Shown here: piece after piece, positions 1,387-61,946 of the stretch
How positions within the stretch are numbered: position 1 is the first letter of the stretch
Layout: every line of letters begins with the position of its first letter
NCBI RefSeq assembly: GCF_009741735.1
Contig: NZ_WHOH01000003.1
Span: 186,001 to 250,000 of the forward strand
Direction of reading: 5' to 3'
DNA length: 64,000 nucleotides
Source: Lentibacillus sp. JNUCC-1
Lineage (GTDB): Bacteria; Bacillota; Bacilli; Bacillales; Amphibacillaceae
Notes under the pieces: generated by a model
Told to the model about the DNA's origin: nothing
The model's input: only the letters and a program-made list of their open reading frames with translations
Database searches by the model: none
Made by a program: the position numbers and the translations under genes

Positions 1387-1482
1387 ATTCCCTGACAAGG
1401 GCAAACTCATTGAAAAATGACGACGCAAAATCACAGGTCTAATGTTTAACTTTACACGATGACGGCTGGATTTCCAGGGGAT
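1387..1482 (+). promoter_or_regulatory. Cyclic di-GMP-I riboswitch (GEMM-I)
   Basis: The sequence carries the conserved GEMM-I core: GGGCAAAC (1399-1406), a UCAUU-GAAA-AAUGA hairpin, GACGCAAAA (about 1421-1429), AGGUCUAA (1435-1442) and a GAUGACGGCUGG 3' helix. The basal stem forms between ATTCCCTG (1387-1394) and CAGGGGAT (1475-1482), all eight pairs with one G-U. The 3' strand of that stem ends 3 bases before GGGG (1485-1488), the likely ribosome binding site of the downstream sinI-like gene, so c-di-GMP binding should act on initiation or on a nearby fold. No T-run terminator lies between aptamer and start codon. Identification rests on motif and helix fit; ligand response is inferred. Confidence 0.88.
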
Positions 1483-1495
1483 ATGGGGCGGGAAT

Positions 1496-1636
1496 GTGGA
1501 AAAGGTAACTTACAAACATGTATACGATGAAGAATGGGTCGAGCTGTTAAGGGAAGCCAAAGCGTTCGGGCTGACGCCCAAGGAAGTGAGGGCATTTCTG
1601 AACCGTGACAAAGAACCACAAGATATTATATGTTAA
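1496..1636 (+). CDS. sinI: SinI-like anti-repressor, 46 aa
   Basis: Small protein expected to bind and disarm a SinR-type repressor of matrix genes. The GTG start (1496) gives 46 codons; the centre reads DEEWVELLREAKAFGLTP followed by KEVRAFL, matching the Sin dimerisation helices of B. subtilis SinI (DQEWVELMVEAKEANISP, EEIRKYL). It has no DNA-binding domain, as expected for SinI rather than SinR. The start is set by the GGGG at 1485-1488; the ATG at 1494 is out of frame and stops after 4 codons. It lies directly behind a c-di-GMP-I aptamer and downstream of sipW and a TasA-like gene, which SinR/SinI control in relatives. No sinR is present in the window, so its partner must be elsewhere. 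Confidence 0.82.
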   Translation: MEKVTYKHVYDEEWVELLREAKAFGLTPKEVRAFLNRDKEPQDIIC

Positions 1637-2677: not shown

Positions 2678-2695
2678 AGGAAGGTGTGTGATCAA

Positions 2696-4911
2696 ATGCA
2701 TGAATTACTGAAAGGTTTGAATAAAGAGCAGCAGGAAGCTGTTCAGCATACAGACGGTCCTTTACTGATTATGGCAGGGGCTGGAAGCGGCAAGACGCGT
2801 GTGCTGACACACCGAATTGCTTACTTGCTCGATGAAAAGGATGTCGCCCCGCGCAATGTGCTGGCGATTACGTTTACCAATAAGGCGGCCCGTGAAATGA
2901 AAGACAGGGTGGCACGCCTTGTCGGTCCGGAAGGCGCATATATGTGGGTCTCCACCTTTCATTCGATGTGTGTGCGTATTTTAAGACGGGATATCGATCG
3001 AATCGGGTATAACCGCAACTTTTCAATACTGGATTCAGGGATCAGCTGTCGGTCATTAAACAAATTCTTAAAAACCTTAATATCGACCCGAAAAAATTTG
3101 AGCCGCGGGCGATGCTCGGGCAGATCAGTTCTGCCAAGAACGAACTGATCACACCTGAAAAATACAGCGCGGAAGTTGGCAATTTTTATGAGCGTCAAGT
3201 GGCGCAAGTCTATGAAAACTATCAGAAAACATTGCAAAAGAATGAGGCACTCGATTTCGACGACCTGATCATGCAGACGATTCAGCTGTTCAACCGTGTG
3301 CCTGAAGTGCTTGAGTACTATCAGCGCCGTTTCCAATACATCCATGTGGACGAGTATCAGGATACCAACCATGCCCAGTACCAGCTCGTGAAGCTTCTGG
3401 CAGCGAGGTTTCAGAACCTGTGTGTGGTCGGCGATTCCGATCAATCGATTTATCGCTGGCGAGGTGCGGACATCCAGAACATCCTAACGTTTGAAAAGGA
3501 TTATCCGTCGGCAGAGACGATCTTTTTGGAGCAGAATTACCGGTCGACGAAAGCGATTCTTGAAGCAGCAAACACCGTTATAGACAACAACACCGGCCGC
3601 AAGCCAAAGAATCTGTGGACAGACAATCCCAGCGGCAAAAACATTCATTACTATCAAGGATCCACTGAACAGGAAGAAGCGTTCTTTGTGACTGAAAAGA
3701 TTCAGGAACTGACAGGATCAGGCGGATTCACGCCTGCAGAGATCGCCATTTTATACCGGACAAATGCGCAGTCCCGTGCGATTGAGGAAACACTCATGAA
3801 ATCCAATATGAACTATCAGCTGATCGGCGGCACCAAGTTCTATGAGCGCAAGGAAATCAAGGACATGACCGCGTATTTGCGCCTGATCGTCAACCCTGAT
3901 GATGACATCAGTTTCGAACGGGTGGTGAACGAGCCCAAGCGGGGCATCGGTGCTACATCGATTGAACGGCTGCGGGCCTATGCGAATGCACATGATATTT
4001 CTTTGTTTACAGCGACAAAAGAAGTGGATTTCACAGGTGTTCCGAAGAAGGCAGCTCAGGCACTGGCAGAATTCTCAGGCCTGATCAAATCCCTGTCCCA
4101 GCAACAGGAATTCCTGACAGCAACAGACATGGTGGAAGCGGTTCTGGAGCGGACAGGCTATGAAACGATGCTGAAAAATGAACGGACCATTGAAGCCCAA
4201 TCACGTCTTGAGAACCTGGAGGAATTCATGACCGTTACAAAGTCATTTGAAGAATCCAGTGAAGATAAAACACTTGTGGCCTTTTTGACAGACCTCGCTT
4301 TGATTGCGGATATTGACCGGGTTGATGCTAATGATCCCGATCATGAAGAAAAAATTACGCTCATGACGCTGCATTCAGCTAAAGGCCTGGAATTCCCGGT
4401 TGTCTTTTTGATTGGAATGGAGGAAAACGTCTTTCCCCACAGCCGGTCAATTTTTGATGAAGAAGAGCTAGAGGAAGAGCGCCGTCTTGCTTATGTCGGT
4501 ATCACCCGAGCAGAGCAGGAGCTATACATGACAAATGCGAAAATGCGTACGCTATATGGCAGGACGAATATGAACCCGATCAGCCGGTTTATCAGTGAAA
4601 TACCGGAACATTTAATCGAAGGCATAGAAGAAGCCCAACAAACGATGTTCGGCAGCCGTTCTTCGCAAACAGGCAGCGGGTTCGCCCCCGAAAAGCCCAA
4701 ACCGAAACGCGCCGCTAGAAAAGTACGAACAACCGGAGCAGAATCAGAAGTTTGGGCACCCGGAGATAAACTGAATCACAAAAAATGGGGAACAGGTACG
4801 GTGGTGAAAGTCCAGGGTGAAGGCGATGCAATGGAATTGGATATCGCTTTTCCTGCGCCGACCGGTTTGAAGCGTGTGCTGGCTCAGTTTGCCCCGATTA
4901 CAAAGCAGTAA
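2696..4911 (+). CDS. pcrA: ATP-dependent DNA helicase PcrA (frame broken once)
   Basis: UvrD/Rep-family 3'-5' helicase for repair and plasmid replication, essential in B. subtilis. The reading frame is split: codons from 2696 run to about 3037, then the protein continues one base out of frame to 4911. Walker A is AGAGSGKT (27-34); motif II is DEYQDTN; later [14 protein letters not shown], the [15 protein letters not shown] motif and the C-terminal [10 protein letters not shown] are intact. The junction reads TTCAATACTGGATTCA-GGG-ATCAG; one extra base in the G run (3038-3040) would restore an uninterrupted 738-residue protein (B. subtilis 739). ATG 2696 has AAGGAAGG 11 bases upstream; GTG 2684 overlaps that site. 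Sequencing error is more likely than loss of an essential gene. Confidence 0.93.
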
Positions 4912-61820: not shown

Positions 61821-61830
61821 AATCATTAAC

Positions 61831-61946
61831 AAAAGCGCAAGCGCCTTGGTCAGCCCCGAAAAGCATAAGCAAGAACGGGTAGTGGCGATCTTTGCCACGA
61901 AGCGGTATTGCTTATGACTCGAGGGGTAGGCGCTGGAGCTGGACAT
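61831..61946 (-). repeat. CTTGCTTATG stem-loop repeat, inverted copy
   Basis: AAGCGCAAGCGCC ... CCCCGAAAAGCATAAGCAAGAAC is the reverse complement of the repeat at 1717-1893, followed by ATTGCTTATGACTCGAGGGG, which matches the other arm of that repeat. Confidence 0.8.

Follow-up and report, generated by a model that had tools for sequence, protein, structure and literature searches.

A c-di-GMP-I riboswitch aptamer in front of sinI in Lentibacillus sp. JNUCC-1 and its relatives: a predicted translational ON switch for biofilm matrix genes

A close and well-known system is the sinI-sinR, tapA-sipW-tasA and eps circuit of Bacillus subtilis, with which the locus described here shares homologues of SinI, SinR, SipW, TapA and TasA as well as SinR-type palindromes next to matrix genes. 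Several differences are evident: the c-di-GMP-I aptamer family RF01051 has no match in B. subtilis or in any other of the 14 control genomes searched, the sinI gene studied here follows a tasA operon and lies approximately 408 kb from sinR on the same contig, and a whole-genome search for the SinI domain found no third regulator such as SlrR. Cyclic di-GMP usually promotes matrix formation, and in B. subtilis it appears to be only weakly tied to the matrix switch. The arrangement itself is already on record once, since a putative (c-di-GMP)-sinI riboswitch was listed by Rfam comparison in the 5'-UTR of sinI (BMMGA3_08510) of Bacillus methanolicus MGA3 (PMC4342826, 2015). That entry, which in the accessible text of the paper consists of one table row and one sentence with no mechanism, resembles the present locus by its description and reduces the novelty of the arrangement; in the accessible open-licence literature we found no other riboswitch on sinI. 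Bc1 and Bc2 of B. thuringiensis (PMC11218506, PMC4933901) belong to the same aptamer class and also occur in a Bacillus. According to the accessible parts of these papers, the platform of Bc1 is long and includes two terminators, and Bc2 regulates a collagen adhesion protein, whereas the present locus has a short leader before an anti-repressor gene. What is new relative to the searchable literature is the extent of the arrangement, its predicted ON logic, and its occurrence together with candidate SinR targets in a single genome.

The DNA analysed here, called the window, is a stretch of 64,000 nucleotides of Lentibacillus sp. JNUCC-1 (C3:186001-250000 of a 3.69-Mb assembly); the genes and signals of the sinI locus described below lie on its plus strand. 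Positions 1390-1478 are a c-di-GMP-I (GEMM-I) aptamer, matched by the RF01051 covariance model over positions 1-87 of 87 with 67.6 bits against a gathering threshold of 35 (E 4.3e-11 for 64 kb). The core carries GGC on the 5' side and UUCC on the 3' side, so that the ligand-contacting G and C, presumably G20 and C92, are in place. The basal stem P1 consists of eight pairs between AUUCCCUG (1387-1394) and CAGGGGAU (1475-1482), and with it both the aptamer and the stem length are as the first-pass annotation had read them. This aptamer probably binds c-di-GMP. Only 13 bases separate the end of P1 from the start codon of sinI (1496-1636, GTG start, 46 codons), and the Shine-Dalgarno (SD)-like sequence GGGGCGGG occupies 1485-1492. 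The annotation had placed the stem 3 bases from the ribosome binding site; the closeness stands, and the distance was corrected to 2 bases, counted to the SD-like GGGG at 1485. Its statement that no terminator intervenes was borne out by a terminator scan of 1270-1720, in which no terminator-like site appeared, and none was seen by eye between aptamer and sinI in the printed sequences of relatives. A stem-loop with a T run behind sinI (1641-1686), read by eye, is a probable terminator whose loop exceeds the loop limit of that scan. The 46-residue product, short and devoid of a helix-turn-helix (HTH), scores 44.7 bits with PF08671 (SinI; cut-off 31.4), as expected of the SinI-like gene first described, and its match to B. 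subtilis SinI in PDB 1b0n_B (E 8.4e-5) covers residues 9-40. The NCBIfam SinI equivalog NF046031 (cut-off 80) was not reached, either by this protein (34.2 bits) or by the second copy in the genome (34.5 bits). By homology the window SinI would bind and inactivate SinR.

The genes before the aptamer are of matrix type. The sipW signal peptidase gene (49-618), beside the switch as first annotated, reaches 293.9 bits with NF046067, above the equivalog cut-off of 190. The next gene (646-1287), first described as TasA-like, encodes a short protein with an LPxTATN sorting signal and is itself only a weak M73/camelysin match (PF12389 24.7 bits, cut-off 22.5; NF058670 37.9, cut-off 32), but clearer homologues of tasA (L007 12461-13075, wholly outside the window) and tapA (L007 13148-14053, nearly wholly outside; TapA 127 bits, cut-off 80) lie upstream, so that the aptamer-sinI unit follows a tasA-tapA-sipW-M73 gene row. 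The tasA homologue beside sipW and a second copy elsewhere carry SipW-type signals and score 290.3 and 144.3 bits with Peptidase_M73, and since neither reaches the NCBIfam TasA cut-off of 450 (NF046066; 97.2 and 104 bits, respectively) both are called tasA-like here. Just 3' of sinI lies a dispersed repeat, of which 1708-1773 and 1828-1893 are 95% identical and 61830-61943, close to the end of the window, matches at 90%. Farther on, pcrA (2684-4911) is split into two open reading frames in different frames, covering UvrD N-terminal positions 1-121 (2684-3148) and 141-271 (3112-4911); because pcrA is essential, a sequencing error is the likely cause. The window also holds a PreQ1 riboswitch (RF00522, 29211-29255) and two Bacillaceae-1 RNAs (RF01690, 45041-45106 and 55006-55072).

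Two c-di-GMP-I aptamers were found in the genome, with 150 of 300 candidates scored, and each stands directly 5' of a sinI gene. The second (C1:1977914-1978005, minus strand, 76.5 bits) precedes a second sinI whose start site carries GGGGCGGGAATGTGG, identical to that of the window gene. SinI-domain matches number three genome-wide, namely the two sinI genes and a full-length SinR (L008 8353-8682; HTH PF01381 64.7 bits, C-terminal PF08671 48.2 bits), 65 of whose 108 residues are identical to B. subtilis SinR; its nearest NCBIfam model, the SlrR equivalog, was not reached (79 of 250). Seven GGDEF matches are present. The first-pass annotation had proposed a c-di-GMP input into the SinR/SinI matrix switch, a reading that depended on the aptamer score, on the SinI domain of the product and on a SinR in the genome; all three are in place, and the proposal is supported.

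For SinR boxes, which it had proposed to search for in the genome, the picture is less even. With an operator consensus of the GTTCTYT type, the loose pair GTTCTYT(0-60)ARAGAAC occurs at 8 places in the genome against 16 for a reversed-pattern control, and is therefore not enriched. Tight 16-bp palindromes are limited to two in the whole genome, and both lie by matrix-type genes. One (C1:726604-726619) precedes by approximately 47 bp the likely start (MKKVKK) of a galU-like gene, falls inside a longer reading of the same frame, and has a divergent gene starting approximately 145 bp on its other side. This galU-like gene heads a minus-strand exopolysaccharide cluster that also encodes a dTDP-glucose dehydratase (501 bits, cut-off 365) and a fusion of a polysaccharide tyrosine autokinase with a Wzz domain. 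The galU-like frame (L170 4139-4633) spans only positions 1-135 of the 261 of TIGR01099 and thus looks cut short. The other palindrome (C3:439714-439729) stands approximately 205 bp before the second tasA-like gene. In the 114 kb covered, three single sites fall within 200 bp only once, upstream of tasA-tapA-sipW. The two palindromes may serve as SinR operators. Among relatives, the sinI-sinR gap of many class A loci (e.g., L072) has GTGCTTTATATAGAACC recurring ahead of the sinR start; it is imperfectly palindromic, one half resembling a SinR box, which could point to autoregulation of sinR.

The unit is widespread in the family to which Lentibacillus belongs. RF01051 is found in 120 of its 159 genomes and SinI-type matches in 103. 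From approximately 155 listed SinI matches we examined 89 loci, 84 in rank order and 5 picked since their coordinates already coincided with an aptamer, using an aptamer model built from 24 sinI aptamers. An aptamer lies directly upstream of sinI in 51 of the 89 (46 of the 84 rank-ordered and 5 of the 5 picked), 22 of these 51 being members of the training set. Rfam alone gives an aptamer in 17 of the top 29, including one through the related RF03167, and 10 of 10 named records (Virgibacillus, Lentibacillus, Oceanobacillus and Aquibacillus), all from genomes already counted, carry it. In eight of the 51 sinI aptamers (L041, L047, L061, L081, L087, L091, L095 and L114) A replaces the first G of GGC, presumably G20, a position that changes in cGAMP-sensing variants. 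Outside the family, the best sinI locus of each of 26 genomes, picked by SinI similarity among 398 sampled Bacilli, yielded an aptamer in 10 cases, no two from the same family. Of the 8 submitted to Rfam, 7 were confirmed, L151 (43 bits) being called by the custom model alone, as were L164 and L168 outside this comparison; the unit thus spans nine or ten further families. sinR follows the unit in 41 of the 51 family cases, in 5 of the 10 out-of-family cases, and in 16 of the 38 aptamer-negative family loci, 5 of which were not resolvable. Seen from the other side, 41 of 57 sinI-sinR pairs have the aptamer (38 of 54 once the picked loci are set aside). In the sister species G055 the sinI-sinR pair lacks an aptamer, and its one c-di-GMP-I aptamer is on a different contig from every SinI match. 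On a poorly resolved SinR tree, aptamer presence requires 12 changes against 14.0 for shuffled labels, with 49 of 500 shuffles as low. The aptamer-sinI wiring is common in the examined relatives of Bacillus and absent in the model species.

Upstream of the aptamer, the tandem repeat TGACAAAACTAGT (1309) and TTGACAAAAGAAGAC (1328) occupies 1309-1342 with its ACAAAA cores 20 bp apart, followed by a -10-like TATAAT (1367-1372) in TATAGTATAATAG, a motif with counterparts in the listed class A units; the nearest match of the promoter scan pairs AAGACA at 1338 with TATAGT ending at 1367 (9 of 12). Two ACAAAA boxes 18-22 bp apart occur in 38 of 53 aptamer-sinI units, exactly 20 bp apart in 36, and the pair stands ahead of a -10 like that of TATAGTATAATAG. 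TTCGACAAAA, read in five units, is presumably the reverse complement of a Spo0A box (TGTCGAA-type consensus), and the boxes of the window have TG where the TTCGACAAAA type has CG. The repeat resembles reversed Spo0A boxes, and Spo0A may control the sinI promoter, in which case two signals may meet at sinI. In 37 of the 38 units with the box pair sinR lies downstream, as is usual for sinI in relatives, and the window unit is the exception; the simplest reading is that its promoter-riboswitch-sinI module and sinR were separated. It is conceivable, though on balance doubtful, that aptamer-controlled sinI under a Spo0A-type promoter is the old, shared sinI-sinR form of Bacilli, a two-input gate in which starvation would act through Spo0A on transcription and c-di-GMP on translation, that B. 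subtilis lost it, and that the module of the window left sinR and now sits by the matrix operon that it controls. A second kind of aptamer-sinI unit is devoid of tandem boxes (L070, L073, L118, L126 and L127; L075, L078, L086 and L112); none of the eight scored ones is followed by sinR, and in several, local hairpins lie close to the SD.

How might such an aptamer act on sinI? We propose that the sinI transcript, probably starting near 1379, carries the aptamer with P1 as part of a translational ON switch. In the ligand-free state, the P1 5' strand would take other partners and the start codon would be hidden; one such partner could be the start site itself, through ACAUUCCC (1385-1392), a possible anti-start strand, pairing with GGGAAUGU (1490-1497), which overlaps the start codon. 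With c-di-GMP bound, P1 would close, the SD and start region would open, and SinI would be made, bind SinR and derepress tasA and the exopolysaccharide genes, so that high c-di-GMP would mean more matrix. The anti-start duplex has eight Watson-Crick pairs and, at -13.2 kcal/mol, ranks first in strength among the 51 loci; the start regions of the other 50 pair no better with the window strand. Shuffled versions of the window start region were as low in 19 of 2000 cases and reached eight Watson-Crick pairs in 24 of 5000, while 4 of 2000 other 18-mers of the window reached eight pairs with the anti-start strand. Across the 51 loci, own pairings averaged -6.66 against -6.10 for swapped ones, with 171 of 20000 permutations as low in a comparison uncorrected for relatedness.

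The effect of P1 was modelled by imposing P2 and P3 and comparing folds with and without an anchored P1, all predictions being made without ligand energy or folding during transcription. Of 53 units, 51 entered with hand-chosen start codons (L101 and L112 had none assigned), and 37 were scored, 9 of the remaining 14 having a P1 of under 3 pairs and 5 lacking anchors. An initial automatic P1 finder had taken SD pairings for P1 in many loci and showed no net shift (24 of 51 up, 23 down); as it misassigned P1 it was replaced by the anchored P1, and the supportive result thus comes from the second method. With P1 imposed, openness of the SD rises from 0.27 to 0.64, increasing in 34 of the 37 loci and decreasing in 1. 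For the stretch that runs from the SD through the start codon, openness goes from 0.42 to 0.59, with 30 loci up and none down; by itself the start codon has no trend in these 37 (13 up, 10 down). Shuffling the 5' flank outside P1 cuts the SD gain from 0.37 to 0.21, the native gain being larger in 27 of 37. In the window, SD-to-start openness is 0.59 with P1 and 0.24 without, the start codon alone being indifferent (0.34 and 0.33); the flank-shuffle control is uninformative here, 83% of shuffles being as closed, and the second copy has no clear change (0.39 and 0.37). The imposed window folds are nearly equal, -25.7 kcal/mol with P1 and -26.2 with the anti-start helix. When the window is folded freely with 49 choices of transcript ends, the outcome depends on the ends chosen: the 5' strand of P1 mostly pairs elsewhere, and the probability of the anti-start helix exceeds 0.5 in 4 and that of P1 in 1. 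In all 49 the probability of an unpaired start codon stays at or below 0.35, so that a hidden start is predicted without ligand, although no fixed helix accounts for it throughout. Some loci appear to use the 3' strand of P1 as the anti-SD instead, e.g., CCUGAAAUAC with GUAUUUUAGG in L070, which would give the ON logic in a different way. UUCUU is accompanied by GGAGG in 8 of 8 loci and UUCC by GGGG in 18 of 19, a covariation that drops the 24 of 51 loci in neither class and corresponds to one change on the SinR tree.

The absence of a terminator, together with the alternative pairings of the start region, favours translational control, as the first reading of the locus had suggested. Unlikely by comparison is a switch acting mainly through mRNA stability or transcription rather than ribosome access; the c-di-GMP-I riboswitch Vc2 reportedly controls RNA stability and the window free folds single out no one start-site helix, but nothing terminator-like lies between aptamer and sinI, P1 is so near the start codon, and alternative pairing extends to the start site. 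The opposite direction, a translational OFF switch in which ligand-closed P1 blocks the ribosome and c-di-GMP lowers SinI, is rather improbable: the 2-base spacing between P1 and the SD-like run would suit it, but imposing P1 opens the SD in nearly all scored loci, and promotion of matrix by c-di-GMP is the usual direction. It also sits poorly with B. thuringiensis, where overexpression of the cyclase CdgF gave higher sinI in array data that the authors call unpublished, in a paper whose accessible text mentions riboswitches twice, on mcpA and cbpA (PMC7793685). That the aptamer is degenerate or ligand-shifted and no longer senses c-di-GMP is very improbable, since the substitution in eight relatives, which might shift specificity towards cGAMP, is absent from the window and its second copy, both of which retain G and score well above threshold. 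A translational ON switch that relieves SinR repression of the matrix genes therefore appears, as the whole explanation, fairly probable, its ON direction being predicted from the folding models.

With a riboswitch on SinI, c-di-GMP would feed directly into the SinR switch, which would offer a concrete way for it to act on matrix genes in Gram-positive spore formers. That the unit recurs in the family of Lentibacillus and, beyond it, in nine or ten other families of Bacilli gives reason to doubt the generality of the B. subtilis wiring.
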